Shown here: positions 40,596-57,882 of the stretch, piece after piece | Layout of the letters: each line of letters begins with the position of its first letter | How positions within the stretch are numbered: position 1 is the stretch's first letter | Source: Lachnospiraceae bacterium MD308 | GTDB taxonomy: Bacteria > Bacillota > Clostridia > Lachnospirales > Lachnospiraceae | DNA length: 64,000 nt | Direction: 5' to 3' | Assembly: GCA_000403475.2 (NCBI GenBank) | Contig: KE159795.1 | Coordinates: 1,643,189-1,707,188, forward strand | Notes under the pieces: model-generated | Told to the model about the DNA's origin: nothing | Database searches by the model: none | The model's input: only the letters and a program-made list of their open reading frames with translations | Program-made: the position numbers and the translations under genes

Positions 40596-41366
40596 CTATA
40601 TCCTCCCCATATTCCTCAATATCCTCTGATAAAACTCCTTCTGTTCCCCGTCCTTTTTCAGCACATCCATAATCTGCCCGTCCTTCAGCAGTATAATCTT
40701 TTTACAGTAGCTCGCCACTTTCGGGTCATGAGTCACTAAGAGAATCGTCTTTTTCATCTCTTTATTGATATGCGCCAAAGATTTGATCACAACTCTTGAT
40801 GAGTTAGAATCCAGATTCCCGGTAGGCTCATCGGCAAGGATAAGCTCCGGATCAGCCGCCATGGCGCGGCAGATAGCAGTCCTTTGTTTTTCGCCGCCGG
40901 ACAGTTCATACGGTTTTTTATCCAAGAGTTTTCGGATGCCGAATTGGGCTGCTATCGTCCTAGCGGTCTGGCGGCTTTTGTTCGCGTCCTCCTCATTTAA
41001 CGTCAGGGGCAGCATGATATTTTCCTCCACCGTCAGACTGTCCATCAGGTAAAAGTCCTGAAAGATAAACGCCAGCTCTTCCCGGCGGACCTTCGCAAGC
41101 TTATCCCCGTAAAACCTCGTAGTCGGCTCCCCTTTGTAAAGGACTTCTCCGCCATTCGGCTTATCTATCATCCCAAGCGTCTTCAAAAGCGTCGTCTTCC
41201 CGCAGCCGGAACTTCCCATAATCCCGATAAATTCTCCCGTTCCCACCGTAAATGAAAGCCCCTTCAACACCTGGCAGGCAATTTTTTCTCCCTCGGAATT
41301 GACGGTATAATAATTCCGGACAAGCTCCTTTACCTCTAAAATTCTGCGCGCACGTTTCTTTTCCAT
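40596..41366 (-). CDS. ABC transporter ATPase of the MacB/BceA type
   Basis: A 256-residue ATPase with Walker A GSSGCGKTT, signature LSGGEKQRTAICRA and Walker B LILADEPTGNLDS, diagnostic of the FtsE/MacB/BceA class that works with FtsX-like permeases. The start at 41366 follows AGGGAGGTCAGGCG and lies 14 bases after the permease stop. With the permease it probably removes or senses antimicrobial peptides at the membrane. Confidence 0.92.
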   Translation of the reverse strand: MEKKRARRILEVKELVRNYYTVNSEGEKIACQVLKGLSFTVGTGEFIGIMGSSGCGKTTLLKTLGMIDKPNGGEVLYKGEPTTRFYGDKLAKVRREELAFIFQDFYLMDSLTVEENIMLPLTLNEEDANKSRQTARTIAAQFGIRKLLDKKPYELSGGEKQRTAICRAMAADPELILADEPTGNLDSNSSRVVIKSLAHINKEMKKTILLVTHDPKVASYCKKIILLKDGQIMDVLKKDGEQKEFYQRILRNMGRI

Positions 41367-41380
41367 CGCCTGACCTCCCT

Positions 41381-43366
41381 CTACTCTCCGTTCTTTTCTA
41401 TCTTTATTAACATCCTCAGCGTAAATACTGCCGATGCGGTCACAAGTATCAGTACCGCCGCTCCGGCTATTCCAAGCATTTCCCACAGATAGCGCAGGTT
41501 CCAGCCCGCTCCCATATGCTTTTCCGACACATCCCCCGCTATAAAGATTAAAGCCGTAGGAACGCCTCCGATAAATGCGGCTATGGGTGCAAGCAGCATC
41601 TCTTTTTTAATACACGCCCTGCGCTTTGCCTCCTCCATTCCCGCCAAAGTCAAAAACTGATACTTCCATCTCATATCCGCGTAATCATATTTTCCTTTAA
41701 TCCACAAAATGAAAACGATACAGAGCATAAGGATAAGAATATTGATTCCGGCAGAAGAAAGCCTTAGAATCTGAGTCCGGTGATTCTGCCCCATCTCCAC
41801 TGTTTTTTCATAGATGATATTATTGCCTTTCCTATAATCCAGCTCATTCACCTGGGAATGTTCCTGTGCATAAGCATATATTTCCTCATAAAGACTTTTG
41901 TACTTATCCCCGGCGAAATCCTTTGGAACGTGTATCATCACTGCCAGATCAGCACCCTCCGCCGTGTCTTTAACCTGCTCATAATATTCATCAGAAAAGA
42001 CGATCACCTGCTCCCAGACATCGCCATGCCAGTCTTCTATTCCCCGAGACTGGTACACCCCCGTCATCACCCGGTTCGTCTCCCCCGCAAGCCGGTATTC
42101 TTTCTTAAACTCCTCCCCGGCGATAAGCCCGGCAAGGCTCATTATCCAGAGATTCCTTCTCGCACTTCCAATATAAAGCCCCGGGCGGCCCGCTCCGTAG
42201 TCAATCCCCAAAAGGTTCCTTTCCTCCCGGTTCCTCTGATAAACAACATAAATCTGCTTTCCTGAAAGCTCTACTCTTTCCTTTGTCCAGTTCTCGTAAT
42301 CCGACGCGCTGATTCCCATATGCTCCCCAAGATCCGGTGTCGTCACCCGTATACAGGGCTGTGTTTTAATCTTCACGCCGTAGGCCGCGGCAAGCCCGTC
42401 AAGAAATTTCTCATCCCCGGCATTTGCCATCCACACAATATCATACGGCCAGGAAGACTCCGGCAGGACAGGCACATGGTCGCAGATTTTTATCCCGAAA
42501 TTAAACAGATTAATGAAAATCAGCACCGCCATAACTACAGAAAGATTCATATTATAATAGAAACGGTGATACCACTGATCCATCCACAAAACCCTTTTAT
42601 GGTAATCCCTGCGCTTTCTCACCTTTCTGAGCCATCTGCCGCAAAGGGCCGTCATAAGGCAAAGAAGCGCCACGCTTACAAGCGTTGACGGAATCGCCTT
42701 ATTCACCTTCCCCCAGTAGGAGAACAAAAACGCAAAAGGCAGGACGGCAAATGCACTTCCTATAATCAGCGGCACGACAGATGGACGGTAATTTTTCCCG
42801 CTCCTTTTTCCCATGGACAGCACCGCCTCCATGCCAAGGCAGGAGATCAGCTCATCACAGATTACGAATATCAGCCCAAACATTACCATTCCCACAATCA
42901 CCGTAAGCCGCAGGGGAATCAGATTTCTCGTTACCGCAAGGGCGTTGTCATGGAGAAGATGCCGCAGGAGGGGCAGCAGCGGTATGCTCAAAACCGCCCC
43001 GACAGCAGCTCCGCCCGTCAGGGAACAGAGAATGACCGCTCCATATTCGCAGCCGATAAAGCGGAACTTATGCTTTCTCTTCATGCCCAGGATGTCAAAC
43101 ATGGCATATTCATAAGAACGTTTCCGTATATAGGCAATCGTCATTAACACCATCAGCACCCCTAATATGACGTAGGTCAGTATGAATACCCCAAGATTCG
43201 TATATACTGCCGTAGCGCTGCCTCTCGACCCGGTTGTAAGCTGAATCAGGCTGTCTGAGATAAATGATGTAATATAAATAATGGATATGACAAATATCCC
43301 GCAGGAGACGATAATCCCGAAATCTCCCCTGCTCTTTCTAAGGCTTTTAAAAAACAGCTTTTTCAT
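41381..43366 (-). CDS. FtsX-like ABC permease (BceB-like)
   Basis: A 661-residue permease with an N-terminal span, a three-span FtsX block (residues 55-160), further spans around 195-280, a large extracytoplasmic region (about 300-530) and a C-terminal three-span FtsX block. This layout resembles BceB/VraG-type peptide-detoxification permeases, though the order of spans is not an exact match. It pairs with the ATPase gene. Given the upstream terminator hairpin at 43404-43432, its transcription may depend on read-through. Confidence 0.82.
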   Translation of the reverse strand: MKKLFFKSLRKSRGDFGIIVSCGIFVISIIYITSFISDSLIQLTTGSRGSATAVYTNLGVFILTYVILGVLMVLMTIAYIRKRSYEYAMFDILGMKRKHKFRFIGCEYGAVILCSLTGGAAVGAVLSIPLLPLLRHLLHDNALAVTRNLIPLRLTVIVGMVMFGLIFVICDELISCLGMEAVLSMGKRSGKNYRPSVVPLIIGSAFAVLPFAFLFSYWGKVNKAIPSTLVSVALLCLMTALCGRWLRKVRKRRDYHKRVLWMDQWYHRFYYNMNLSVVMAVLIFINLFNFGIKICDHVPVLPESSWPYDIVWMANAGDEKFLDGLAAAYGVKIKTQPCIRVTTPDLGEHMGISASDYENWTKERVELSGKQIYVVYQRNREERNLLGIDYGAGRPGLYIGSARRNLWIMSLAGLIAGEEFKKEYRLAGETNRVMTGVYQSRGIEDWHGDVWEQVIVFSDEYYEQVKDTAEGADLAVMIHVPKDFAGDKYKSLYEEIYAYAQEHSQVNELDYRKGNNIIYEKTVEMGQNHRTQILRLSSAGINILILMLCIVFILWIKGKYDYADMRWKYQFLTLAGMEEAKRRACIKKEMLLAPIAAFIGGVPTALIFIAGDVSEKHMGAGWNLRYLWEMLGIAGAAVLILVTASAVFTLRMLIKIEKNGE

Positions 43367-43403
43367 AGTTCCCCGCCTCTTTCCCCATTTGCTGTATAGT
43401 GAA

Positions 43404-43432
43404 AAAAACTGGCACTCGACGCACCAGTTTTT
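43404..43432 (-). terminator. Intrinsic terminator between small membrane protein and permease genes
   Basis: Perfect 9-bp arms (43404-43412 and 43424-43432). On the minus strand the stem is followed by a run of T. It lies between the stop of the 142-residue gene and the permease start, so it may act as an attenuator within the operon. Confidence 0.65.
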
Positions 43433-43442
43433 ATATCAACAC

Positions 43443-43871
43443 CTATATATATAAGAAAAACAATGCTGCCGCTATAAATGTTACTACCCATATTACTTTT
43501 GCTATCATTATGATGATGGCATATTTCTCCGTGATAAAAGGCTCCTTTCTGCAAAGCTTAAGTATCAGGTATATGAACTCAACTGCCACCGCCAAAACGA
43601 TGCATACCACCATCATCGGCAGACAATATATCAGCAGCCTATCCATAAGCTCACTTTTTCCCACCAACGGTATCGCCTGCTCCAGCGCAGCCTCAGCCCC
43701 TATCTCGAACGCCCTGGCAATCCAGAACGCTACATAAGCAAGAATTACTGCGTTTAACGGAAAATCAACCCAAATCGCGCGTTCCATAAAACTCTTTTTG
43801 CACTTCTTCCTGCCCTGGTTCTCGTCGTAAATTCGCTCCTCGTTTAATGACATCTGTTTTGCATTCGACAT
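43443..43871 (-). CDS. Small four-span membrane protein, paralogue of 44723-45109
   Basis: A 142-residue protein with a basic N-terminal tail and about four membrane spans; DUF2975-like in shape but not confidently assigned. SFMERAIWVD and EPFITEKYAIIIMIAKV are shared, with small changes, with the product of 44723-45109 (SFMDYAIWID, EPYITERFSVIGIIGKV), so the two are paralogues. The start at 43871 follows AAAGGAGCG. It is the first gene after three stacked promoter elements and before the BceAB-like ABC genes, which suggests a role as immunity or sensor protein. Confidence 0.6.
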   Translation of the reverse strand: MSNAKQMSLNEERIYDENQGRKKCKKSFMERAIWVDFPLNAVILAYVAFWIARAFEIGAEAALEQAIPLVGKSELMDRLLIYCLPMMVVCIVLAVAVEFIYLILKLCRKEPFITEKYAIIIMIAKVIWVVTFIAAALFFLYI

Positions 43872-43951
43872 AATATTCGCTCCTTTCTTTTCTTTGTTCC
43901 CCGATATATATTTATTTCCTTTGTATATCGTCAATCGATATGTTTGTAATT

Positions 43952-43980
43952 ATAATACATCGATACCCGATATAAGTCAA
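43952..43980 (-). promoter_or_regulatory. Sigma-A promoter P3 with padR-like operator
   Basis: Minus strand TTGACT (43975-43980), a 17-base spacer, and TATTAT (43952-43957). The spacer is a dyad of the form TATATCG-N5-CGATG and matches the spacer of the padR gene promoter at 13 of 17 positions. Another ATCGAT-type half-site pair lies downstream around 43926-43940. Likely bound by the PadR-family protein encoded at 57485-57832. Confidence 0.6.
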
Positions 43981-44016
43981 TACCCAATTTGCGAAAATCA
44001 GATAACCCTTTATAAA

Positions 44017-44047
44017 ATATAATCAGTTGAACAGCCAAAACGTGACA
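44017..44047 (-). promoter_or_regulatory. P2, copy of the TGTCACG-N17-TTATAT motif
   Basis: Minus strand TGTCACG at 44041-44047 and ATTATAT at 44017-44023 with exactly 17 bases between. The same two boxes and spacing occur before three other genes at 48.2, 50.9 and 55.3 kb. The architecture fits an ECF-sigma promoter; the ECF sigma gene at 51702-52265 is the obvious candidate. Confidence 0.6.
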
Positions 44048-44079
44048 CCAAATTCATATTTTTTTATTTTTCTGATTTT

Positions 44080-44110
44080 ACTGTACACCTTAAAGCGGCT
44101 TGAAGGTCAA
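44080..44110 (-). promoter_or_regulatory. P1, MerR-type promoter
   Basis: Minus strand TTGACC (44105-44110), a 19-base spacer and TACAGT (44080-44085). The spacer contains a near-perfect dyad (CCTTCAAG-CCG-CTTTAAGG). Bases 44090-44110 are identical, over 21 bases on the opposite strand, to 55397-55417 in the merR promoter. The long spacer with a central dyad is diagnostic of MerR activation. Confidence 0.75.
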
Positions 44111-44126
44111 GGAGTTTTTGAAATTT

Positions 44127-44414
44127 CTATTTTGACATCCCGTTGCGTTTCTTTGCTCTTGATGTGACAACAAGAATTATAAGAGATATGATCTGCACAG
44201 CAAACAAGTATTTTGCATAATCCGGGTATCTGTGTGCCCCTGACCATTCAGCCGCGCTAAATAAGTCTTTACTAAAATACATCGCATACAGCTGCGCCGT
44301 TTTTACCAGCAACCACGCCGTCACTACAAAAAATACTACTAAAGATGTTTTCTGAAGAACGGAACATATCCTCAAATTATTCTTTTCTGCTGTTATCTTC
44401 TTTACATCTGACAT
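44127..44414 (-). CDS. Small two- to three-span membrane protein
   Basis: A 95-residue protein beginning MSDVKKITAEKNN with a strong ribosome site (CAGGAGGGAAAGCATT). It has hydrophobic segments around residues 25-45 and 70-88 and a basic C-terminus. No family is recognised. The frame is open upstream into an ABC-transporter remnant, but the internal ribosome site makes 44414 the real start. It may be another accessory or immunity protein of the peptide island. Confidence 0.55.
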   Translation of the reverse strand: MSDVKKITAEKNNLRICSVLQKTSLVVFFVVTAWLLVKTAQLYAMYFSKDLFSAAEWSGAHRYPDYAKYLFAVQIISLIILVVTSRAKKRNGMSK

Positions 44415-44417
44415 AAT

Positions 44418-44600
44418 GCTTTCCCTCCTGGACTTTATATTTTGTTCTTTACTATATATTTCCTTATCATTTCCTTGCTCACGCATTCCTTCCATATACA
44501 ACCGGTAATACTGTCTGCCCTTTTCCAAAAGTTCATCATGGCCGCCCGTCTCTGTTATCAATCCATCCTGTATAACAACAAGAAAGGTGCAGTCTGAAAA
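44418..44600 (-). pseudogene. C-terminal remnant of an ABC exporter
   Basis: The frame encodes FLVVIQDGLITETGGHDELL followed by EKGRQYYRLYMEGM, closely matching the end of the intact exporter at 48301-50127 (MVIQNGVITETGSHKELL, EKGGQYYQMYMED). Everything upstream (Walker motifs and membrane domain) is missing, cut close to the 35-bp repeat at 44631. It shows that a second exporter once stood here and was lost by recombination. Confidence 0.75.
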
Positions 44601-44630
44601 AATGAGACCAACTTTTATATTTGCACAATG

Positions 44631-44665
44631 ATTGCAAACAGGGAGCGAATTCACCCTCCGCTCCC
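44631..44665. repeat. 35-bp direct repeat, copy 1 (truncated terminator)
   Basis: Identical over 35 bases and in the same orientation to 56620-56654, where it forms the terminator after the merR gene. Here the right arm of the hairpin is cut after CGCTCCC, so the copy breaks inside the stem and lies directly next to the ABC remnant, marking a recombination junction. Confidence 0.85.
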
Positions 44666-44722
44666 AGACATTAAAACCCTTACTGGAGAGTCCGCCCTAC
44701 TCATGGAAATTTATCTGAAAAA

Positions 44723-45109
44723 TTAAAATACCAATAATGATGCTGCCACAAATCCTAATGAAATAACTTTCCCGATAATACCTATAACAGAAAATCTTTC
44801 TGTAATGTATGGTTCATTTCCCCTGAACTTTAAACTCACATAGATAAACTCTATTACCATAAGAAATATAGCATCAAAAGCAATCACCGGCAGACAGATT
44901 ATAAGCATCTCATTCTCTGTTGTATTCATGTTGTTCAAAACATTTTGCAGGAAAATATCAATTCCCGTATGAAATACTCTCACAGCCAGCATTACAACAT
45001 ATCCAAATATAGCTATGTTTATCGGCAGATCAATCCAGATCGCATAATCCATAAAACTCCTTTTCTGTTTTTCATTCCTCAAAATACCCTCTCCCTTCAT
45101 ATAGAACAT
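44723..45109 (-). CDS. Small four-span membrane protein, paralogue of 43443-43871
   Basis: Up to 128 residues with about four membrane spans; related to the product of 43443-43871 over its whole length. The ATG at 45109 has no clear ribosome site, whereas an in-frame TTG at 45082 follows AAGGGAGAGG, so the true start is uncertain. It is directly downstream of the RiPP precursor gene on the same strand, which suggests an immunity function for the peptide. Confidence 0.6.
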   Translation of the reverse strand: MFYMKGEGILRNEKQKRSFMDYAIWIDLPINIAIFGYVVMLAVRVFHTGIDIFLQNVLNNMNTTENEMLIICLPVIAFDAIFLMVIEFIYVSLKFRGNEPYITERFSVIGIIGKVISLGFVAASLLVF

Positions 45110-45149
45110 AATATAAAAAGCTTGTGAATACTCCTTTACATTTTATAAT

Positions 45150-45371
45150 TTATAATTTTCCGCCTCCAGTAGGCTCTCTGTTAAATGCTGCATGAGAATT
45201 ATATTTATTATAATATGAGCTTCCTTTGTTTGCTTTCTTATTATTCTTACACTTGCATAATACTACTGCTCCTGCTTTGCAAAGAACCGAGCAGGTCAAA
45301 GTACAACCGCCATCTTGTGGCTCAATCAAACTTCCATCTGAAAAATCCATTTTTTTACCTAATTCTGACAT
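45150..45371 (-). CDS. Cysteine-rich RiPP precursor peptide (CLI_3235-like)
   Basis: A 73-residue peptide. The N-terminal part (MSELGKKMDFSDGSLI) resembles the leader of CLI_3235-type precursors, ending in a GG before a cysteine cluster (GGCTLTCSVLCKAGAVVLCK, one more Cys shortly after). The C-terminal tail is Asn/Lys/Tyr-rich. The ribosome site AAAGGAGGAGAAACA is strong. It overlaps the ACP-like gene by 13 bases and is the last core gene after the radical SAM enzyme, TIGR04066 and ACP-like genes. The five clustered cysteines are the likely sites of thioether (sactionine-type) crosslinks; this is inferred from the maturase class. Confidence 0.82.
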   Translation of the reverse strand: MSELGKKMDFSDGSLIEPQDGGCTLTCSVLCKAGAVVLCKCKNNKKANKGSSYYNKYNSHAAFNREPTGGGKL

Positions 45372-45643
45372 TGTTTCTCCTCCTTTGAATATTCACAAGC
45401 TTTTTTTACGAGTTTTACGATGCTGATAAATGTTGCAAATTGTTTGTTTATCAAATCTTTTTCACAGAATTTTATTCTAAATGTATTTTGCAAATCCATA
45501 TATACTAAAAACAAATCTCTTGGATTAGTATTAATTTCAGCCCCAAACAACTTTTTACCTCTTAATTTTTCGTTATTTTGGAAATCCAGTCCTGTACGCT
45601 CAAAAAAGATCTTATAGACTTTTCCCATTATATTTTCTTCCAT
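45359..45643 (-). CDS. Peptide-maturation acyl-carrier-related protein (TIGR04069-like)
   Basis: A 94-residue protein, MEENIMGKVYKIFFERTG onward, matching in size and position the acyl-carrier-related proteins of CcpM peptide loci. The start at 45643 follows TAGGAGG with an eight-base gap. No obvious phosphopantetheine DSL serine motif is seen, so a carrier role is uncertain. It lies between the TIGR04066 gene and the precursor. Confidence 0.7.
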   Translation of the reverse strand: MEENIMGKVYKIFFERTGLDFQNNEKLRGKKLFGAEINTNPRDLFLVYMDLQNTFRIKFCEKDLINKQFATFISIVKLVKKACEYSKEEKQCQN

Positions 45644-45655
45644 GTAACACACCTC

Positions 45656-46726
45656 CTATATCGAATCTACGCTGCCATACGATTTAAGCTTATTTAATAT
45701 CGCGCTAATCAACTTTGATACTTGTTCCTTCTCTAAATCATATATATTTTCTTTCGAAGGGTTCTCTTTCATATCATTCTTATTAACTGTCAAATAAGTA
45801 CACTTCTGTTCAAGCTCTGTATCTGACAATTGCATACGCCTGTTAGTCCTGCAAAAAACATCTACAGGTACGCCAAATCTATTTTTAACCATTTCTGAAA
45901 TAAAGTGTAAATCTGATTCTAAATACAAGTCATATGGCAGCAGCATTCCTACTACATCTGGTTTTACAGCATAAAAATAATCTCTCGCCAAATATCCAAA
46001 TCCTGCGACATAATTTTCAGATACCGCACACATTTCCCCTGGAACACCAATGATAATTAATTCTGGTCTTTCTGTTTCTTCCAGTTCTTTTACATATCTG
46101 TTAAACATCAATGTTTTTTCTTTATCTGAAACATTATCATCAACCATAAACCATGGAACATCAAAAAAACCAAATTCTTTTGAAACATCCTTTGTTCCAA
46201 TCTGAATAAAGGATACATTTCTCTTTTTCAATTCTTTTCTGACCATAAGTTGGAAATCAAACTCACACAAATCTCCATATAAGCTGCAAATATATACAAT
46301 AGGAGTATTGATCGGCTTCAAAAACTCTCCATTTTTCTTTTTATCCATTTTTGTTTCGTATGACCTGTAAAACTTAATTGGCAAATCAGCTATATAATCT
46401 TTCGCCATATCATTAAGGTTTTTACTAAGAATAATCTTCTTTTCTTTTTCACATGCCAATTTAATAAATGGCAAATATTCTGTTTTGAAATCAAGATGCG
46501 TTGAAAAATCCACAAACCAAATTACTTCCGACGCATAATCATCAATAGCTTTTTCAAAATCATAAACTAACGGTATTTTATTATTATTAACCCAATACTC
46601 ATGCTGCCCTTTGTCCCATCCTTTAAGTCCAACCAAACATATTGGATTCAACTCCTGAAGTAATTCATTATGCTCGACAATAAACTCACTTTCTCTTCCA
46701 AATGGATAAATCATAGCCTTTTTCAT
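45656..46726 (-). CDS. Peptide maturation system protein, TIGR04066-like
   Basis: A 356-residue soluble protein beginning MKKAMIYPFGRESEFIV with alternating strands and helices (two Rossmann-like halves, PLVYDFEKAIDDYASEVIWF and ELIIIGVPGEMCAVSENYV). It matches the accessory family found with CcpM-type radical SAM maturases. Biochemical role unknown. The start at 46726 follows TAGGAGGAGTGGCT, twelve bases after the radical SAM stop. Confidence 0.75.
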   Translation of the reverse strand: MKKAMIYPFGRESEFIVEHNELLQELNPICLVGLKGWDKGQHEYWVNNNKIPLVYDFEKAIDDYASEVIWFVDFSTHLDFKTEYLPFIKLACEKEKKIILSKNLNDMAKDYIADLPIKFYRSYETKMDKKKNGEFLKPINTPIVYICSLYGDLCEFDFQLMVRKELKKRNVSFIQIGTKDVSKEFGFFDVPWFMVDDNVSDKEKTLMFNRYVKELEETERPELIIIGVPGEMCAVSENYVAGFGYLARDYFYAVKPDVVGMLLPYDLYLESDLHFISEMVKNRFGVPVDVFCRTNRRMQLSDTELEQKCTYLTVNKNDMKENPSKENIYDLEKEQVSKLISAILNKLKSYGSVDSI

Positions 46727-48216: not shown

Positions 48217-48247
48217 ATATAAGCCTGCGACTTTACAGAACGTGACA
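48217..48247 (-). promoter_or_regulatory. Promoter of the radical SAM operon (TGTCACG-N17-CTTATAT)
   Basis: Minus strand TGTCACG (48241-48247) and CTTATAT (48217-48223), 17-base spacer. The gap between the exporter stop (48301) and the maturase start (48159) holds only this element, so maturation genes are transcribed separately from the exporter. Confidence 0.65.
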
Positions 48248-48300: not shown

Positions 48301-50127
48301 TTATGCGCAATCAACTGCACACTGTACTCCAACACTCTCCTGCACACTCGTGTCCTCCATATACATCTGATAATACTGTCCACCTTTTTCCAACAATTCT
48401 TTATGACTCCCAGTCTCAGTTATCACACCATTTTGTATAACCATAATCTTATCCGCAAGCTCGTTAACATAATTAATCTTATGTGATACGTAAATCCCAA
48501 TTTTATGTTTTTTTGCTTTCTTGAAAAGCTGGATAATCTCTCTCTGCCTAAATACATCCAACGACGCATCAGGTTCATCAAAAATATATACATCCGCATC
48601 TTTAATAAGTGCCCTTGCTATAGCCAACCGCTGCCATTCCCCGATAGAAAACTGCTGTCCGCCAAACCAATTCCCGATCACCTCGTCCAAGCCTTCTTCA
48701 CTTTTTGACTTGTGATCGAGATTTACTGATTTAAGCATACAGTGAATCTCTTCATCATTGCCAAGCTGATCAATATCACCAAACGCTACATTTTCCCTTA
48801 ATGATGTCTCATATTTCATGTAGTCCTGAAAAACTACGCCGATTTTTTTCTGATAGCTTTCTGTATCTATTTCTTTCAGGTTCATGTCATTAATAAATAT
48901 TTCCCCCTCATATTCTCGGTACAAACCTAACAGAAGCTTTGTCAGCGTAGACTTTCCCGAACCATTTTCGCCTATTAACGCTACTGATTCTCCCGGTCTG
49001 ATAAAAAAACTTGCATTCTTTAGCGCATATTTTCCATTGCTGTATTTGAATGATACATTACGGAATTCAATACACCGGACAGCCGGAACATCTTTTCTAT
49101 GAATATCTTCTATTTCCGGCAGATCCAAATATTCAAATAGTAAGTTAATATACATCGACTGTTCAACAAGATTATTAATTCCTGAAAAAATACCCTCAAC
49201 AGAACTTTTAATGTTATCTGTACAATCAATATAAGCTGTTACATCACCGAGCAGAATCCGTCCAACAAATCCCCCAAAAATTGTATAAATATAGATTCCT
49301 CCGGTTATCACCCAATCTGCAACATCAAAACATGTTCCAAGCAAAACGTTTTTTCCGTACATTTTATTTTCCTGAGAAATAATTTTATTTTGGATGGTCT
49401 CATATTTGTCTAGCAGGAATTTTCCAATTCCCAAAATTTTTATCTCTTTATATGCCTTACCTGTCATCGTCAGAAAATTAATGTACCACTTCTGTCGTTC
49501 AAGAATTGTTCTTCCTATCCTCATCTCATAGATTTCTTTATCTATAAGGAATGTGGCTGCACTTCTTCCTATAGGTATGATCAGGATAACCGCCACAAGC
49601 CGCCAGTTAAATCTAAAAAGGACATATGCCATGCTTGCGATTGATATTATCTGCTGCAGGATATCAAATACTGAGACTACATAATTCAGGATATCTCCTC
49701 CGTTTTGATTCTGTGCCCGGTTGATAATGTCATAAGTATCTGAATCTTCAAAATCACTTAATGATAAATTAATCGCTTTTTTCATCATCTTCATGTTAAA
49801 CATTTTTGAAAATCTCATGCCGAACTGATAATTATATTTTGAATACAGCATATCCAATGCTGCGCTTACTACATGCAACCCCACAAAGCACAAAATATAA
49901 CTCAGTATAACCTCAAAACCTTCTTCCTGGCTCTGAACGAGATTAATTACTTTCTGCATTACTACAATAAAAGAAATCGGGAACACTCCCTGCAGCACTT
50001 TAAAAAACAGGCTTACTCCCAAATAGGATTTACTAAAACCCGTAACCAGTCCAAACGAATTAATACTACTTTTCCACAAAAACTGATTAAATATTTTATC
50101 TTTTATTTTCTTTATCGAATGTCTCAT
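48301..50127 (-). CDS. ABC exporter for the modified peptide
   Basis: A 608-residue half-transporter: six-span membrane domain followed by an ATPase with Walker A GENGSGKST, signature FSIGEWQRLAIAR (unusual SIGEW in place of SGGQ) and Walker B VYIFDEPDASLD. There is no C39 peptidase domain, so leader removal needs another protease. The start at 50127 follows TTGGAGGAAATATTT; the upstream frame to 50238 lacks a site. Lies upstream of the radical SAM gene, as in related loci. Confidence 0.88.
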   Translation of the reverse strand: MRHSIKKIKDKIFNQFLWKSSINSFGLVTGFSKSYLGVSLFFKVLQGVFPISFIVVMQKVINLVQSQEEGFEVILSYILCFVGLHVVSAALDMLYSKYNYQFGMRFSKMFNMKMMKKAINLSLSDFEDSDTYDIINRAQNQNGGDILNYVVSVFDILQQIISIASMAYVLFRFNWRLVAVILIIPIGRSAATFLIDKEIYEMRIGRTILERQKWYINFLTMTGKAYKEIKILGIGKFLLDKYETIQNKIISQENKMYGKNVLLGTCFDVADWVITGGIYIYTIFGGFVGRILLGDVTAYIDCTDNIKSSVEGIFSGINNLVEQSMYINLLFEYLDLPEIEDIHRKDVPAVRCIEFRNVSFKYSNGKYALKNASFFIRPGESVALIGENGSGKSTLTKLLLGLYREYEGEIFINDMNLKEIDTESYQKKIGVVFQDYMKYETSLRENVAFGDIDQLGNDEEIHCMLKSVNLDHKSKSEEGLDEVIGNWFGGQQFSIGEWQRLAIARALIKDADVYIFDEPDASLDVFRQREIIQLFKKAKKHKIGIYVSHKINYVNELADKIMVIQNGVITETGSHKELLEKGGQYYQMYMEDTSVQESVGVQCAVDCA

Positions 50128-50244
50128 AAATATTTCCTCCAATCTTCCTTGATTACAACGATTTACAAGATCTTGTTTTGTACAGTTACAGTGTATACTA
50201 AGAGTCTCTGCCTTATCAAAGAATTGTCTCCAATGCATAAAAAA

Positions 50245-50893: not shown

Positions 50894-50924
50894 ATATAAG
50901 TCTCCAAAATAGCAAAACGTGACA
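50894..50924 (-). promoter_or_regulatory. Promoter of the secreted-protein gene (TGTCACG-N17-CTTATAT)
   Basis: Minus strand TGTCACG (50918-50924), 17-base spacer, CTTATAT (50894-50900), 36 bases before the gene start. Third copy of the island-wide motif. Confidence 0.65.
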
Positions 50925-50953: not shown

Positions 50954-51709
50954 CTAATCATCTTCAAATACTGATTCCAGACAATCAATCAACACTTCAA
51001 CATCATCATATCCTCCTATGGTATAAACAAATCCTTCCTTTTGCAATATAATACCATGATAATTTTTTTCATCTGTAAATAAGTATGCCTCATCATTCCC
51101 AACTTTAATCCTCTTTGCCGGAGTACCATCTGATGTAATGGACACTTCATAAAGCTCCGTCAAATCCTGTGAGTACCATAAATTCTGATCTTTTGAGTTT
51201 ATAAAACCCTGTGAAAAAATAGGTAGCTCCAACTCCGGATTCTTCATAACGTCCTCTTCCGAAAACAACGTATACCCTTCCGGAACTTTTTTTAACCTTC
51301 GCGGATAATTTTCCATATCTGCTTCTACTGCTCCGGCTCTTATTTCCTGTTCAATCTCTTCAAAACTCACCTCCGTATGATCCGAAAATATCCGCTCAAT
51401 CATCTGATATACTTTTTCCCTCAATGGCTCTACCGCCAGTACCGTCATAGACCCCATCATCATAACGACTACCGCAACAAACGCAATGCGGATTCTCAGG
51501 CTCATCCCATTGCTTCTGTATTTTGCAGGCTTCACCTTAGCCTTCCCGCAATTGCCTCTGACTAATTCCCGTATCCTTCTCTCATGCTCTTTAGAAAACT
51601 CATGCTCCTCTTCCTGCGCCGCGCATTTTTCTAAGACCGCACATTCTATCTTCATCGCTTTCGCTGCCGCTTCCTTTAGCAGCTCATCCGTCAATATAAT
51701 CTTACTCAT
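50954..51709 (-). CDS. Anti-sigma factor (DUF4367-type)
   Basis: A 251-residue protein: cytoplasmic N-terminal helical region, a single membrane span (IRIAFVAVVVMMMGSMTVLA, about residues 80-100) and an extracytoplasmic DUF4367-like domain (YTLFSEEDVMKNPELELPI, GIILQKEGFVYTIGG). It overlaps the sigma gene by eight bases. It probably holds the ECF sigma factor at the membrane until an envelope signal arrives. Confidence 0.82.
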   Translation of the reverse strand: MSKIILTDELLKEAAAKAMKIECAVLEKCAAQEEEHEFSKEHERRIRELVRGNCGKAKVKPAKYRSNGMSLRIRIAFVAVVVMMMGSMTVLAVEPLREKVYQMIERIFSDHTEVSFEEIEQEIRAGAVEADMENYPRRLKKVPEGYTLFSEEDVMKNPELELPIFSQGFINSKDQNLWYSQDLTELYEVSITSDGTPAKRIKVGNDEAYLFTDEKNYHGIILQKEGFVYTIGGYDDVEVLIDCLESVFEDD

Positions 51710-52265
51710 AAATATCACTCTTTTCTTTTAATTTGCCTTCCAGCAATTTGCGTCCACGTCTTGCAATCTGCCTTGCGTTGCTCTCGGTTATATCCAATAC
51801 TTTCCCGATATCCGCATAAGACATCTCGTTGCAATAATGCAGATATATCACTGTCCTGCATCTTTCCGGCAACTCCAACAGGCAATGCGCTATCATGTCG
51901 GACAATTCATTTTGCAGAACATGTGATTCCACATCCTGTACCTCTTCCGTTAAATCCGCCAAAAGATTATAGTCCTCTGATATCCTGTCCTTTCTGTTCT
52001 TATTTTTATTATATATCTTGATTGCTTTATTCCTCACTACTACAAACAGATATCCCCATGTTTCATCTGAATAGACATCCCGGATGATATCCAGCTTTCC
52101 AAGAATTACTTCAAATGCATCCTGTACAGCATCTTCTGCATCATCACTATTATGGACGACCCCATAGGCAGCCGAATACATCCGCTGTCTGTAATGCTGA
52201 TATATCTGCTCAAATTTCCTCTTATCTTCTGACCCCTCAAGTTCACTCAGATATAGCTTTACCAT
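51702..52265 (-). CDS. ECF-type RNA polymerase sigma factor
   Basis: A 187-residue sigma factor with region 2 (YSAAYGVVHNSDDAEDAVQ) and region 4 (RCRTVIYLHYCNEMSYADIG followed by ESNARQIARRGRKLL). Paired with a transmembrane anti-sigma factor. It is the best candidate to read the four TGTCACG-N17-(C/A)TTATAT promoters of the island. The short gap before it (52266-52330) contains an A/T-rich imperfect dyad. Confidence 0.9.
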   Translation of the reverse strand: MVKLYLSELEGSEDKRKFEQIYQHYRQRMYSAAYGVVHNSDDAEDAVQDAFEVILGKLDIIRDVYSDETWGYLFVVVRNKAIKIYNKNKNRKDRISEDYNLLADLTEEVQDVESHVLQNELSDMIAHCLLELPERCRTVIYLHYCNEMSYADIGKVLDITESNARQIARRGRKLLEGKLKEKSDIYE

Positions 52266-52330
52266 CTTTCGTTCCTCTTTTTACATAGTTTATATTGTAA
52301 TCCTAAACTATTATGTAAAAAAAGGCAATC

Positions 52331-52486
52331 TTATTTTTCGTTCACTCTTTTCAGGTCATTGAGCAATGCCGCCAAATTCTCAGGTTTTGGCACTTTATAT
52401 ATAAAGATCGGACTGCTTTTCCCTACACTTTTTTCAGCATAATATAATGCTGCTGACTCTAAATGATTATATCCTTTCTCTTTCAT
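52331..52486 (-). CDS. agrD: AgrD-like autoinducer precursor without cysteine
   Basis: A 51-residue peptide that overlaps the end of agrB by 20 bases, with AGGGG ahead of the ATG. It has an amphipathic N-terminal helix (HLESAALYYAEKSVGK), a short core (SSPIFIY) and a C-terminal K(V)PKPENLAALLNDLK recognition segment like AgrD. Cyclic lactone autoinducers usually close on Cys; here only Ser is available, so the product would be an ester (lactone) rather than a thiolactone. Identification rests on position and overall layout. Confidence 0.65.
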   Translation of the reverse strand: MKEKGYNHLESAALYYAEKSVGKSSPIFIYKVPKPENLAALLNDLKRVNEK

Positions 52487-53051
52487 CTCTTTTAACCCCT
52501 TTCTTATTTATAAGTGTAACTCCCTGCAGCACTACCACACTCAGCGCCGCAATCCTCCAATATTCTCCGGATACATATCCAATTGCCAATATAAATGCTG
52601 CCAGTAAAACACTTTTTATCTTTTGCATCTGCTCCTGTTTTTCTCTTTCTGCACATCTGTAGTACTCATCCTCTGGAGCGAACTCCAGATATAACAACAA
52701 TGCTGCAGCGGCAACGGCTATATATGTTGTTTCTGATATTTGTAATATCATCGGCACTCCTACGCTAATCGCAAGAATTCCCCCTGTCAGCGTAAAACAT
52801 CCTAAATTCGTCTTCGCATGTTTTCCTCCAGATGTCTTCCTCAACGCTCCAAAAGCAGTCATAACCGCCGCGACCTCCATCCCTTTTCCTAAAGCAAAGC
52901 CAACAGCCAGATAAGCAAAAGATTTTAACAAAGAATCAAAAATCAGTTCCAACCCGTAGACAATGACTTTTTTTTCGCTTTCTGAATACTGCTTTTTCTT
53001 ATCCATCTTCCGCATAACCTGTACACTTGCAGTCTGTATGATTCCTTCCAT
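52467..53051 (-). CDS. agrB: AgrB-like accessory protease
   Basis: A 194-residue polytopic membrane protein of the AgrB family. ALRKTSGGKHAKTNLGCFTL contains the catalytic His (GGKHAK) and Cys (GCF). It processes and cyclises AgrD. RBS AAAGGAGGAATTAA. Its own promoter with tandem LytTR-type repeats lies upstream, so agrBD is a transcript separate from the two-component genes. Confidence 0.9.
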   Translation of the reverse strand: MEGIIQTASVQVMRKMDKKKQYSESEKKVIVYGLELIFDSLLKSFAYLAVGFALGKGMEVAAVMTAFGALRKTSGGKHAKTNLGCFTLTGGILAISVGVPMILQISETTYIAVAAAALLLYLEFAPEDEYYRCAEREKQEQMQKIKSVLLAAFILAIGYVSGEYWRIAALSVVVLQGVTLINKKGVKRDERERI

Positions 53052-53086
53052 TTAATTCCTCCTTTTGTGTTTTTATCTTGTTCTCG

Positions 53087-53157
53087 ATTGTAATCAATCT
53101 TGTTCCAGTTACACAACAAAAAGGCACAAATGTAAAGAAAAGAGGCATAAATGTAAA
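53087..53157 (-). promoter_or_regulatory. agrBD promoter with tandem LytTR-type sites
   Basis: On the minus strand TTGTGT (53111-53116) and TACAAT (53087-53092) have an 18-base spacer. Immediately upstream, two near-identical 14-base elements (GGCACAAATGTAAA at 53123-53136 and GGCATAAATGTAAA at 53144-53157, plus-strand reading) repeat with a 21-base period, two helical turns, as expected for a dimeric AgrA/LytTR regulator. Likely positive autoregulation by the LytTR protein at 54495. Confidence 0.7.
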
Positions 53158-53169
53158 ATTATGCCTCTT
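53140..53169 (-). terminator. Hairpin after the histidine kinase gene
   Basis: 11-base arms 53140-53150 and 53159-53169, followed on the minus strand by T-rich sequence. It overlaps one of the LytTR-type repeats, so the same bases may end the kinase transcript and bind the regulator. Confidence 0.55.
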
Positions 53170-53174
53170 TTTCA

Positions 53175-54482
53175 TCAGTTTGCGTACGGTATTTCTATTT
53201 TTTGTATTACCAATCCATCTTCCACACTTATTACGTGTATAAGCTCTTCTCTCTCTTTCAGGATATTTTTCACCCAGTATAATCCCATTCCCCTTCCGAC
53301 TCCTTTTGTAGATACCCCCTTCTGGAATATTTTAGACAGATTAGGGTACTGCCGGCAGGAATTGGCAACTTTAAATATTGCTCCTTCTTCTGTACTGGAT
53401 GCCTCGATAATGAGCTTTTTTAATTCGGTTTCTTCTGCCGCTTCTATCGCGTTATCTATAAAGATTCCCAAAATTCTATTAATTATCTGTATTTCTGGAT
53501 ATTTTACCTCTAGCCCATCTTCTATCTTTATCTCTGGTTCTATGTCTTTACTAAGTGCCCTCAGAATCTTCTCATATAAAACCCCTTTTATCTCCATTGG
53601 CTGTATATTACGAAGACTTTTCCAGATGTGCAAATCTTTATAGTAATCTGTCTCTTTTGTCCAGGTTAATTTCTGATAGTATACTTTGAGCTGCTCCATC
53701 TCTCCTTCGCGGATATATCCAGCCATCTCTGCAATTATGTTTTTGTAATCATGTTTAAATGCTCTCAGCTCATCTATCATTTGTTCCATACTTAAGACAT
53801 AATTTTCTGTTATTTCTTTCTGATGCCCCTCTGCTTTTCTCTGTTCAGCCGATCGGATACTTGAAGCACATAAAACAATCAATAGGCTGCTTATCAGCAT
53901 ACAAATAAAAAAGAGAATACAGTTAAGACCTAATCCCCGTACATTGTACCCCGCTTTTTCCCCCATTGATATCGTAAACAAGAAAATAAGCAAGTATAAT
54001 ACCCCATTAGCAAACATTCCATAACGAATCGCCGGAGCGACACTGCTGATATGGCCCGAAAAATTCAGTTTTTCATATAGGATATAACGCAGCCCTCTTA
54101 AAATCAGCCACAGGAATACAGTATATACCGCCCAAAACACTTCCCCATAATGATCTACAAAGTCAACTAATGGAATCCCAAGTAACGCCACTATCCCCCA
54201 AAAGAACATATTATTGCACAGTATATTGATCAGATATCCGACCGCTGCCATAAATCCATTCTCCAACCGATATTCTTCTGTCAACAAAAACAGCAAAATC
54301 AACAGCCCAATTACCATAGGAATGCCCATAATCTGTCCAAAGGTATTCCCCAAAAATGCCATCGCAAATACATATGCCGCTATAATCGCCACTCTCTGGC
54401 GCTTCATCCTGTAAGGAATCAACATCGTTGTTGACATCACAACCATCAAAGAGGTAAATACACATGAAATCAGAAGTTTCAT
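53175..54482 (-). CDS. AgrC-like sensor histidine kinase (GHKL)
   Basis: A 435-residue protein with six to seven N-terminal membrane spans, a phosphoacceptor motif FKHDYKN around residue 243, and a GHKL ATPase (N-box FIDNAIEAAEE, G-box KGVGRGMGLYW). This is the AgrC architecture for sensing cyclic peptides. It lies 12 bases after the LytTR regulator gene. Confidence 0.92.
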   Translation of the reverse strand: MKLLISCVFTSLMVVMSTTMLIPYRMKRQRVAIIAAYVFAMAFLGNTFGQIMGIPMVIGLLILLFLLTEEYRLENGFMAAVGYLINILCNNMFFWGIVALLGIPLVDFVDHYGEVFWAVYTVFLWLILRGLRYILYEKLNFSGHISSVAPAIRYGMFANGVLYLLIFLFTISMGEKAGYNVRGLGLNCILFFICMLISSLLIVLCASSIRSAEQRKAEGHQKEITENYVLSMEQMIDELRAFKHDYKNIIAEMAGYIREGEMEQLKVYYQKLTWTKETDYYKDLHIWKSLRNIQPMEIKGVLYEKILRALSKDIEPEIKIEDGLEVKYPEIQIINRILGIFIDNAIEAAEETELKKLIIEASSTEEGAIFKVANSCRQYPNLSKIFQKGVSTKGVGRGMGLYWVKNILKEREELIHVISVEDGLVIQKIEIPYAN

Positions 54483-54494
54483 ATTCTTCCCTCC

Positions 54495-55277
54495 CTACTG
54501 TACGACTAATCCATAATGACCGTCTCCCTGCATCAATTTACACAAGCTTCCAATCTCACGGTATGGTACTTCTAATTCATATCCACATTCAAGAAAAATC
54601 TTTCGTCCCTTTTTATCTATCTCTCTGATTTTTTGTTTCTGGACAATACAAGACTTGCTAATAAAAATAAAAGCTTCATCCAGCATCTCGCTTATATTTT
54701 TTAATGACTGGCGAAGTGTTAGTTTTTTATAAGAAAGGTAAATCTCTATCTGGTGGCTTCCTTTTACTGCCTGTATAAATAAGATATCATCCTTATTAAC
54801 CTCCAGCACTCTACTTCCAGCAGATATTGAGATACTATTTTGTTTCTTTTCTTTCATAAGTTCAATTTTACCAAAGATATTCTCCATCCTTACTTTCATT
54901 TCATTACCCATTCTATCTGAAAGAAAATATTCCGGTTTTTTGATAATATAGTCTAGCGGCTCCAGTTTATATTCAAAAGCTCTGAACGCCAAATCTTCCT
55001 GCGAAGTCAAAAATACAATATAGATATCTCTGTCCTGTTTTTTTAATTTTCTCGCCAACCCAAAACCATCCATAGTATAGCCATTTAATTCGACATCAAG
55101 AAAAAATAGTGCCGTATTTTCCTCATTCTTTATAAAATCATTAATTGTGAAAAGCGGATTATTCCTTGCTGATACAATCTCAGCCTGTATGTGGTTTTCC
55201 TTCAAAAATGACTCGATGACTTTTTTAAAGTAATTGAGCTGAGACAGTTCATCTTCACAAAGATATATGTCAATCAT
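54495..55277 (-). CDS. LytTR response regulator (AgrA-like)
   Basis: A 260-residue regulator with a receiver domain (acidic pair CEDE near the N-terminus, phospho-Asp 61 in LFFLDVELNG, Lys in the KKPEYF segment) and a C-terminal LytTR DNA-binding domain (GSRVLEVNKDDILFIQAV, HQIEIYLSYKKLTLRQSL). It is first in the pair with the kinase and is preceded by a TGTCACG-N17 promoter. Likely activates agrBD through the repeats at 53123-53157. Confidence 0.93.
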   Translation of the reverse strand: MIDIYLCEDELSQLNYFKKVIESFLKENHIQAEIVSARNNPLFTINDFIKNEENTALFFLDVELNGYTMDGFGLARKLKKQDRDIYIVFLTSQEDLAFRAFEYKLEPLDYIIKKPEYFLSDRMGNEMKVRMENIFGKIELMKEKKQNSISISAGSRVLEVNKDDILFIQAVKGSHQIEIYLSYKKLTLRQSLKNISEMLDEAFIFISKSCIVQKQKIREIDKKGRKIFLECGYELEVPYREIGSLCKLMQGDGHYGLVVQ

Positions 55278-55329: not shown

Positions 55330-55360
55330 ATATAAGCCTCTGAAGGCAATATCCGTGACA
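55330..55360 (-). promoter_or_regulatory. Promoter of the agr two-component genes (TGTCACG-N17-CTTATAT)
   Basis: Minus strand TGTCACG (55354-55360), 17-base spacer, CTTATAT (55330-55336). Fourth copy of the motif, in the divergent gap with the merR promoter. Confidence 0.65.
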
Positions 55361-55396: not shown

Positions 55397-55427
55397 TTGA
55401 CCTTCAAGCCGCTTTAACCCTTATAAT
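55397..55427 (+). promoter_or_regulatory. MerR-type autoregulated promoter
   Basis: TTGACC (55397-55402), 19-base spacer, perfect TATAAT (55422-55427), 34 bases before the merR start. Its first 21 bases are identical to the P1 element at 44090-44110 (opposite strand), and the A-rich stretch just upstream is also similar. Confidence 0.8.
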
Positions 55428-55460: not shown

Positions 55461-56609
55461 ATGACGATTAAAGATGTAGAAAACAAACTTGGCATCACCA
55501 AAGCAAATATCAGGTATTATGAAAATGAAGGACTTATCTCCCCAAAAAGAAATGATACAAATAACTATCGGGAATATTCCGAACAGGACATCGAACAGCT
55601 TGAACGGATTAAAGTATTAAGAGTCCTCGGAGTTCCTATCTCTGACATCCGGGAGCTGAAAGACGGAAAGCTGAATCTTGACGCCGTTATGGAAAATCGT
55701 CTCAAACTGCTGCATGAGGAAGAGCAGAACCTTGAGGCAGTCAGGCGTGTATGCGAAAACCTGCGCCAGTGCCATCTTCCTTTTGATTCTGTATCAGAGT
55801 CAATACTGGAAGAGGATGAGGCTTCCTGGGGCGAACAGCTTGCGAAGGTTTTGAAGGAAGATATTACAAAAGAAATCCTGACACCGAAACAGTTTAACAA
55901 AAATCTGGCGCTGATGCTGTCTTATGGATATTGTATATGTGCCGTCGTCTCATTTCTCCTCGGAGATTGGATATACTCTTCTGCCGACGGCATCTATTTT
56001 CCCGAAAAACTTATGGATTCTCCGGGAATGATGGAAAAAGTATTTCCATTTGCCTCTACAATGGGAACCTTCTTTTTCCTTCCGGTTATTTTATGCATCA
56101 TTTGTTATGCAGGGATGTATTTTACCAAAAACACAACTATATTAATGGTAATCTTCCATATAAATGCCATCAATCTGGCTCCATTACTTATAGCCGCCTA
56201 CACTTTTGCAAGAGGTTTTATCTTCCTCTGGAAGAAAGACACTTCTATAAGCGGACAGCATTTTGGACTTTTCTGGCTTATGACCGCAGCATATGTGATT
56301 ATACTGTTCTTGTTATCCCGGACGTGGAAACACTTCTTTACCAAAGCGCGGTACGTAATCGCTGCAGCTCTGGGATATACCGCAGTCATGACACTCATCG
56401 GCGGTACGCTTAGCGGGATGTGGATAGCATTTTTCATCGGCTTCTTCCTGTTTACTATGTACATTGGCCTGAACTGGTTCCATGCTTACCATGATGCTAA
56501 TAATAACAACAGATACTTCGCCGTAACGGAAGGCTTAAGGATTATGAATATCTTCGGTGCTGCATTCGATATGAGAGGAAAGACAAGCCCTACCTGGGTA
56601 CAAAGATAA
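55461..56609 (+). CDS. MerR-family regulator fused to a multi-spanning membrane domain
   Basis: A 382-residue protein. Residues 1-75 are a MerR winged helix (ITKANIRYYENEGLISPKRN, then YREYSEQDIEQLERI). Residues 80-110 form the dimerisation coiled coil. After about residue 150 come six to seven hydrophobic spans (for example YGYCICAVVSFLLGDWIY, LPVILCIICYAGMYF, LFWLMTAAYVIILFLL). A one-component membrane sensor of this form could detect a membrane-active compound and act on DNA directly. Start follows AAAGGAGGGCATTTATC. Shared operator at 44.1 kb marks the BceAB-like operon as its target. Confidence 0.85.
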   Translation: MTIKDVENKLGITKANIRYYENEGLISPKRNDTNNYREYSEQDIEQLERIKVLRVLGVPISDIRELKDGKLNLDAVMENRLKLLHEEEQNLEAVRRVCENLRQCHLPFDSVSESILEEDEASWGEQLAKVLKEDITKEILTPKQFNKNLALMLSYGYCICAVVSFLLGDWIYSSADGIYFPEKLMDSPGMMEKVFPFASTMGTFFFLPVILCIICYAGMYFTKNTTILMVIFHINAINLAPLLIAAYTFARGFIFLWKKDTSISGQHFGLFWLMTAAYVIILFLLSRTWKHFFTKARYVIAAALGYTAVMTLIGGTLSGMWIAFFIGFFLFTMYIGLNWFHAYHDANNNNRYFAVTEGLRIMNIFGAAFDMRGKTSPTWVQR

Positions 56610-56712: not shown

Positions 56713-57495
56713 TCACACCCGGGCCACCACCGGCTTCGGCCCCTCAAACATCACGATTACAACAGGAGTTCCCGGCTGAATCTCTTCTTCATTGGTCTTT
56801 ATCTTTATCTGTTTGCCGCGAAACGTTCCTTTACCCTTGTAAGTGATTACCGTATCTGCCACTCCAATCTCCCAGAGAAGTTCCATCTCCCTTTTATTAT
56901 TCAACGTCTGGATATAACTTCTTAACACAATCTGCGCCGCCGCCGCTATTATGCTTATCCATACGCCCCGCTCCATACTGTGCGCCATCAACGCCACTCC
57001 GACGGCCAGTATAAATCCGCTGTTGTTCATGGCTCCGGCACCTGCGCCGCCCCAGTCTTTTCCATGCACATAGTAAAGCTCCAGGTCATTGTGCTTCTCC
57101 CATGCGCTTAACAGGAAACCATATACAAGGAGCGCTCTCCCGATATACTCCGGTATAATTACAGGCACTCCGGCTGCACTTATATCTACAACTCCCATAC
57201 CTCTTTCCAGCACCCATCTCGTCAACAGAGTCAGGACGCAGCATGCTAAAAACCATATAGCCATATTAAGGTCAAGCACGTCTCTGTAAATCCGGTTCAT
57301 CTCCCGCCCCGCCTCTCCGGGGTCACCCATCTGCCTTACAGCCTCTTCTTCCGCTTCCTCCTCACTCATGCCGGATTCCATGAGCGCCTCCTTGCAGTCC
57401 TCGATATGATCCTGGTACTCTCTCATAATCTCTTTTCTTATCCTGGAACTTTCGATGCGCTTTGTCAATGCCTGCAAATATTTATCAGCCTTCAT
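56713..57495 (-). CDS. Permease-prefix-domain membrane protein with NfeD-like tail
   Basis: A 260-residue protein. Residues 1-70 form a DUF1700/permease-prefix helical domain (YLQALTKRIESSRIRKEIMR, EEEAVRQMGDPGEAG). Membrane spans follow around 75-200, and the C-terminal 50 residues look like a small OB-fold of NfeD type (VADTVITYKGKGTFRGK). It overlaps the padR gene by 11 bases, the usual PadR-linked arrangement. Function is unknown; such proteins are implicated in envelope stress or transporter control. Confidence 0.7.
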   Translation of the reverse strand: MKADKYLQALTKRIESSRIRKEIMREYQDHIEDCKEALMESGMSEEEAEEEAVRQMGDPGEAGREMNRIYRDVLDLNMAIWFLACCVLTLLTRWVLERGMGVVDISAAGVPVIIPEYIGRALLVYGFLLSAWEKHNDLELYYVHGKDWGGAGAGAMNNSGFILAVGVALMAHSMERGVWISIIAAAAQIVLRSYIQTLNNKREMELLWEIGVADTVITYKGKGTFRGKQIKIKTNEEEIQPGTPVVIVMFEGPKPVVARV

Positions 57496-57832
57496 AATTC
57501 ACACCACCTATCATCGTGCCTACTGCTTCTGCGTATGTGTTCCACTCCTCTATCATCTTGTCAAGGTATTTGCGCCCACTTGGCGTAATCTGGTAATACT
57601 TGCGAAGCTTGCCGTTAGCCTCCTTATCGTATCCCTTCAGATACCCACCCTGCACCAGACTGTGAAGCAATGGGTAGAGCGTCCCTACCTTAAGCTCAAA
57701 TACATTGTTGGAACGTTTGGATAAAGTGCTTATCATCTCGTATCCATACATATCCTTTTCCGACAAAAGCTTTAAAAGCAGCATGGATGTATTACCAGAA
57801 ACAAGATTCCTACTTACTGTCATATTACTCAC
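57485..57832 (-). CDS. PadR-family transcriptional regulator
   Basis: A 115-residue PadR winged helix (MLLLKLLSEKDMYGYEMIST, VGTLYPLLHSLVQGGYLKGY and YYQITPSGRKYLDKM). Such repressors often control transporters for peptides and drugs. Its promoter contains a TATATCG-N5-CGATG operator inside the spacer. A similar operator is found at 43958-43974 upstream of the BceAB-like operon. Confidence 0.92.
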   Translation of the reverse strand: MSNMTVSRNLVSGNTSMLLLKLLSEKDMYGYEMISTLSKRSNNVFELKVGTLYPLLHSLVQGGYLKGYDKEANGKLRKYYQITPSGRKYLDKMIEEWNTYAEAVGTMIGGVNYEG

Positions 57833-57882
57833 CTCGCTTTTTATTGTTATATTTTCGATATATATCGGCTTTCGTTATATTC

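Follow-up and report, generated by a model that had tools for sequence, protein, structure and literature searches.

Control of self-protection by more than one regulator has been described in producers of antimicrobial peptides. One such case is the subtilin system of B. subtilis ATCC6633, in which a dual control governs both biosynthesis and immunity, and the spaIFEG genes depend on SpaRK as well as on AbrB/SigH (PMC8991943). A link between a PadR protein and bacteriocin tolerance has also been described, and the PadR proteins known to repress resistance to peptides or drugs include LmrR and bcPadR1, the genes of the latter responding to a bacteriocin; for PadR proteins, an ATGT/ACAT inverted motif with an 8-10 nt spacer has been reported (PMC3506622). 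Promoters of the MerR family possess a spacer of 19-20 bp and are activated by DNA distortion (PMC9909328). In this work, we analyzed a stretch of 64,000 nucleotides from Lachnospiraceae bacterium MD308 (hereafter the window), in which three promoters of different kinds lie directly before an operon encoding a BceAB-like transporter. This operon probably protects the gut bacterium against a peptide antibiotic which it makes itself. As with spaIFEG, a producer's presumed immunity transporter is placed under more than one regulator, and an alternative sigma factor is part of the predicted circuit; unlike the subtilin case, where SigH acts through spaRK, three separate promoters directly precede one operon here (PMC8991943). 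No such arrangement of three kinds was found in the accessible portions of the open-licence literature on multi-promoter immunity operons or on immunity operons with PadR, MerR or ECF control, nor is it described in the corresponding portions dealing with membrane-bound MerR proteins, PadR operators and the ECF/DUF4367 pair. The individual parts all belong to known types; what is new is their unusual combination before one transporter operon. The way in which a producer of a peptide adjusts its own protection could be studied in this locus as a natural example: the inputs which would converge on one transporter are linked to production (ECF), sensed at the membrane (MerR) and relieved from repression (PadR).

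The transporter operon and its surroundings

The operon is read from the minus strand. Its first gene (43443-43871) encodes a 142-aa membrane protein with three predicted transmembrane (TM) segments, related to the 128-aa protein encoded at 44723-45109, and is followed by the genes of a BceB-like permease of 661 aa (41381-43366) and a BceA/LolD-like ATPase (40596-41369; TIGR03608, 214 bits, under the cut-off of 254.85). The best solved relative of the permease is BceB (7tcg, E 8.5e-9), and hydropathy gives 10 predicted TM segments with a large loop after the seventh, so that the target is indeed BceAB-like, as originally predicted. In this topology and sequence relation, the system resembles BceAB detoxification transporters (7tcg); it differs from them in the lack of BceRS-type two-component genes among the three genes of the operon, in the position of the permease gene before the ATPase gene, and in the extra small membrane protein.

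Six relatives of the permease at 24-40% identity (L173-L178) were compared, five of them with upstream sequence (L176 is without it). A MerR promoter (up to three mismatches) is found upstream of the permease in none of these five, and PadR palindromes (two mismatches) occur in two of them, at least 2.7 kb upstream of the permease; calling the arrangement unusual, as had been done at the outset, is therefore fair. In two of the relatives, L174 and L175, which are BceB-like permease operons of Lachnospiraceae, a gene for an ECF sigma factor (25% identity) lies a short way upstream and in the same orientation.

Upstream of the operon lies a peptide cluster, and this genomic place suggests that the operon confers immunity to the cluster's own peptide. 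The cluster comprises a CcpM radical-SAM maturase (TIGR04068, 584 bits; cut-off 500), its TIGR04066 partner (231 bits; cut-off 200), a TIGR04069-like protein (57 bits, under the cut-off of 70), an ABC exporter (48301-50238) and a Cys-containing candidate precursor of 73 aa (45150-45371), for which no NCBIfam match was found at E 0.1. Beyond these genes follow an ECF sigma factor with a DUF4367 protein, AgrB and an AgrD-like ORF, a GHKL kinase, a LytTR regulator, MerR and then PadR with its HAAS neighbor. Each candidate regulator (MerR, ECF sigma and PadR) is encoded within 14 kb of the promoters. Some further features of the cluster may be mentioned. A 22-nt inverted repeat (91%; 45112-45133 and 45387-45408) flanks the candidate precursor gene, and a frame at 44415-44654, just ahead of the gene of a 95-aa membrane protein, looks by eye like the C terminus of the ABC exporter. 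An Agr-type quorum system which looks complete occupies 52331-55277, within the radical-SAM peptide cluster; its AgrD-like ORF is 51 aa long.

Three promoters before one operon

The original prediction placed three promoter types within 160 bases, and rechecking of the coordinates confirmed all of them on the minus strand, at 44110-44080 (P1), 44047-44017 (P2) and 43980-43952 (P3). From the DNA sequence, this stack is predicted to consist of working switches. Patterns were searched in the 4.46-Mb genome of the strain itself and, for co-occurrence, in six genomes of one genus (its own and G001-G005, of which G004 is 77% complete), with the reversed patterns as control. The full promoter-plus-operator patterns gave no control match in the six genomes. 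Looser patterns are not rare, and the weight of evidence therefore lies with the exact or full patterns and with their placement. The locus holds two of the three MerR promoters of the genome, both of its PadR promoters and all four exact boxes of the P2 type; random placement of 3 MerR, 6 box and 2 PadR sites would give about 2e-7 such triples inside a 160-base stretch. There is good support for the three promoter types, for the BceAB-like target and for assigning MerR and PadR to their promoters.

P1 (44080-44110) is a MerR-type promoter, TTGACC-N19-TACAGT, identified by its pattern and by alignment with a promoter of the relative G005. Its 19-bp spacer is within the 19-20 bp required of the type and contains a perfect palindrome, CCTTNAAG/CTTNAAGG, at 44106-44088, with the sequence CCTTCAAGCCGCTTTAAGG. 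Elsewhere in the window, this palindrome (up to two mismatches) occurs only at 55401-55419, with two mismatches, inside the promoter of merR itself (TTGACC-N19-TATAAT; 55397-55427, plus strand), a match which bears out the nomination of MerR as candidate regulator of the first promoter. The MerR regulator (55461-56609, plus strand) carries a C-terminal membrane domain with six predicted TM segments, according to domain search and hydropathy, and a membrane signal is therefore likely. No Pfam model covers this membrane domain, the sole PADLOC match is the DNA-binding end of the protein, and the AlphaFold model has a mean pLDDT of 47.8. With up to one mismatch, the full MerR promoter pattern occurs at 10 sites in the six genomes (six at merR, two before genes of a free-standing copy of the membrane domain, P1, and one before an unrelated lipoprotein gene). 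The bare palindrome is not enriched in the genome (13 at up to one mismatch vs 20 in the control); in the window, six copies at up to three mismatches compare with 2.05 expected, a number reached by 7 of 100 shuffles. The locus thus shares with MerR-family promoters the 19-bp spacer, the palindrome in the spacer and the same promoter type at merR; it differs from them in a regulator with six predicted TM segments and without a known ligand domain, as well as in the stacking with two other promoters (PMC9909328). In the main text of a survey of membrane-bound regulators, the string "merr" appears only within an author's name (PMC10269533).

P2 (44017-44047) is an exact match to the box TGTCACG-N18-TTATAT and is probably an ECF-sigma promoter. 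The exact box occurs four times in the whole 4.46-Mb genome, always in the window and in a gap upstream of a gene: besides P2, before the CcpM radical-SAM gene (48217-48247), before the gene of a 138-aa, probably secreted protein (50894-50924), and before the Agr-type response-regulator gene (55330-55360). TGTCACG strings number eight in the window, vs 3.53 expected (1 of 100 shuffles reaches eight); four of them have TTATAT at the fixed distance, and one of the others lies inside the CcpM gene (46902). At up to two mismatches, the box shows no excess in the genome (122 vs 152 in the control). A refined form, TGTCACRT-N17-TTATAY, gave 11 exact sites in three of the six genomes with no control match, nine of the 11 before genes of this system; this form misses the box before the response-regulator gene of the window, which reads TGTCACGG. 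Half of the six boxes of the refined form in the strain's own genome are outside the locus; one of its boxes (C3:425146) is an orphan, and another (C1:1266763), inside a 100-aa ORF, looks like a chance match.

P3 (43952-43980) is a sigmaA-type promoter by pattern, TTGACT-N17-TATTAT, with a PadR-type operator in its spacer (operator 1, 43957-43973; one mismatch to ATATCG-N5-CGATAT). An exact copy, operator 2 (43925-43941), follows operator 1 at a distance of 32 bp. It is located downstream of the starts expected for all three promoters, which the -10 elements put at an estimated 44073 (P1), 44010 (P2) and 43945 (P3). The PadR regulator (57485-57832, minus strand; PF03551, 79.3 bits) adjoins a protein in which domain search finds a HAAS domain, its probable partner (56713-57495, minus strand). 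The padR promoter, TTGACA-N17-TAATAT (57911-57883, minus strand), has two operators of its own (57888-57904 and 57862-57878, 26 bp apart; whole region 57862-57911). These and the P3 pair are the only PadR palindromes of the window at up to one mismatch, and the assignment of PadR to the third promoter, proposed beforehand, is borne out by this palindrome pair at padR itself. The spacing of operators (sites at up to two mismatches) is 32 bp at three of three transporter promoters and 26 bp at six of six padR promoters; three second padR copies have one operator site each. The PadR promoter pattern (up to one mismatch) yields seven sites in the six genomes and none in the control, namely one padR promoter per genome and P3. 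The bare palindrome is less selective, with 17 sites in the genome at up to one mismatch vs 11 in the control, and seven in the window at up to two mismatches vs 3.44 expected (5 of 100 shuffles reach seven). The operators read ATATCG-N5-CGATAT or ATATCG-N5-CGATGT and do not follow the ATGT/ACAT motif reported for PadR proteins. Like bcPadR1 and LmrR, the PadR protein shows apparent autoregulation and a resistance target; unlike them, it has paired ATATCG-N5-CGATAT operators with two fixed spacings and a HAAS neighbor, and its target is shared with MerR-type and box promoters (PMC3506622).

The reader of the P2 box

Two proteins of the locus are candidates for the recognition of the box. The ECF sigma factor (51702-52265, minus strand) has regions 2 and 4 according to Pfam, and the DUF4367 protein encoded next to it (50954-51718, minus strand; Pfam, one predicted TM segment by hydropathy) is probably its anti-sigma factor. 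The Agr-type LytTR response regulator is encoded at 54495-55277. Many ECF factors recognize a CGTC-like -10 element, from which the -10 of the box (TTATAT) differs, and LytTR proteins have paired repeats as targets.

The distribution of the box among the six genomes points to the ECF sigma factor as its likely reader. Exact boxes occur in three of the six, and these are the same three which hold the ECF factor at 42-100% identity (the match in G004 spans residues 91-180 only, at a contig end). G005, with an ECF factor 47% identical, has one exact box and, in front of its anti-sigma/ECF genes, one with a single mismatch. Exact boxes are absent from G002 and G003, where the ECF matches are at 30-33% identity. 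In a wider set, ECF homologs at E 1e-28 were found in three of 395 genomes, with at most eight candidates scored per genome and the partial ECF of G004 falling below the line. A further genome, G202, has an ECF factor 32-33% identical and only a TGTCACATTTT element with a different -10, one small gene after an anti-sigma-like gene. At up to one mismatch, no box was found in the CcpM loci of five other genera (L122-L126) or in L118 of the genus. The ECF gene of the window has no box directly upstream; on its upstream side, a box is found only farther away, ahead of the response-regulator genes. An inverted repeat seen by eye at about 52275-52325, directly upstream of the ECF gene, is a possible operator of another regulator.

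Alternatively, the box could be the site of the LytTR response regulator, which would make P2 a quorum-sensing promoter. The cluster contains AgrB, the AgrD-like ORF, the GHKL kinase and the LytTR regulator, and response-regulator genes follow three of the 12 boxes aligned: one in the window, one in G004 and one at a paralog in the strain's own genome, whose 19-kb locus contains no ECF homolog. Even so, we regard this assignment as rather unlikely, as box presence across the genomes does not track the response regulator. G005 has boxes and no response-regulator homolog above 27% identity (20 of 20 candidates scored). The reverse holds for G001, which has the regulator (76%) and the kinase (68%) but no exact box, and no ECF factor at E 1e-10 (26 of 26 candidates scored). 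Four exact boxes are retained in G004 despite an internal deletion in its regulator and a fragmentary kinase. Among 29 regulator loci, most of them with regulators at 23-33% identity, only those of G004 and of the own-genome paralog show boxes (up to one mismatch); a search for loci related by the response regulator gave no relatives. Moreover, a two-block motif of fixed spacing resembles a sigma promoter more than the paired repeats of LytTR proteins. The Agr/LytTR regulator was favored at first as owner of the box and was dropped because intact boxes track the ECF gene better across the six genomes. Thus, the original view that the ECF sigma reads the box stands in so far as this factor is, from sequence, the better of two candidates.

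A putative three-input promoter array

We consider it likely that the 160 bases form a three-input promoter array for the operon of the 142-aa protein, permease and ATPase, with binding, starts, signals and the immunity role all predicted. P1 would be switched on by the membrane-embedded MerR once its membrane domain senses stress or the peptide. P2 would be read by the ECF sigma after release from the membrane anti-sigma; since the same box precedes the genes of the maturase, the 138-aa protein and the quorum regulator, the transporter might rise together with peptide production. P3 would be held down by PadR on the two operators, and released through PadR and its HAAS neighbor. Because operator 2 is just past the expected start, PadR bound to it could in addition impede transcription coming from P1 and P2, as a putative roadblock. 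The finely graded control of immunity to which the original prediction pointed is hypothetical.

Promoter order in relatives and the free-standing membrane domain

A search of 84,980 species gave only two operons above 40% identity, those of G005 and G004. Relatives carry two or all three promoter types in the same order. The comparison of the intergenic region proposed with the original prediction shows that the order is kept in G005, but that a gene splits the stack there: a MerR promoter and a box precede the gene of MemDom, which is the membrane domain of MerR without the DNA-binding part, and are followed by a PadR promoter, the operon (142-aa homolog 50%, permease 74% and ATPase 84% identical) and padR with its own operator pair. 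A merR gene with its own MerR promoter is found near the G005 operon. In G004, the order is box, PadR promoter and operon (47, 68 and 84%), and its locus has no MerR promoter at up to two mismatches. In G001, a MerR promoter and a box with a spacer shorter by 2 nt lie before MemDom, and padR with an operator pair follows. In local alignments, the first half of the window promoter matches the MemDom promoter of G005 with a score of 113 (the best of 300 single-base shuffles reaches 39), and the second half matches the operon promoter of G005 with a score of 108 (best of 300 single-base shuffles, 41). From the order in G005, G004 and G001, the stack looks like two neighboring promoters brought together. 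Relatives with two or three of these inputs represent natural variants.

This history raises the question of whether P1 and P2 still serve the operon. They could be leftovers, with little output, of a neighboring promoter whose gene, MemDom, was lost, so that only P3 would matter. The G005 order, in which P3 alone directly precedes the operon, is consistent with this, as is the -10 of P1 (TACAGT), which is weaker than that of the MemDom promoters (TATAAA). Such a loss of function is nonetheless unlikely: both the P1 and P2 motifs are intact, no terminator-like site is seen on the minus strand between P1/P2 and the operon, and G004 also keeps a box directly before P3 and the operon.

Chance resemblance, in which an AT-rich gap yields promoter-like matches without regulators, is very hard to credit and was rejected: a general sigma-70 scan of 42500-46000 does give 18 sites vs 11.1 expected (sd 3.2), so that single promoter matches mean little, and loose box and MerR patterns are no higher than genome controls, but the full patterns have no control match in six genomes, the MerR and PadR patterns also occur in the promoters of merR and padR themselves, and relatives show the same promoter order and the same operator spacing.

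A remnant of MemDom was not found between P2 and P3 (score 21; 200 single-base shuffles, mean 19 and maximum 28). MemDom may have been lost here or gained in G005; G004 is also without it at this place. A tentative extension of the mechanism, possible though doubtful, is that the membrane MerR senses the peptide or its target in the membrane and directly activates the BceAB-like transporter, that MemDom, under the same MerR-type and box promoters, acts as a feedback decoy in relatives, and that its loss joined the three promoters in this strain and so converted a feedback circuit of two genes into the three-input switch. The MemDom copy of G005 (L151) has no Pfam or NCBIfam match. The locus draws attention to MerR proteins whose sensor domain has several TM segments, and to copies of this domain which stand alone under MerR-type promoters; the copies at L115:14015-14800 and L151:10389-11174 are 52-53% identical to the MerR membrane domain. 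The one MerR-type promoter of the strain's own genome outside the locus, L129:5629-5659 (C1:653628), lies before the gene of a 740-aa lipoprotein, and its downstream letters are like those of a MemDom promoter.
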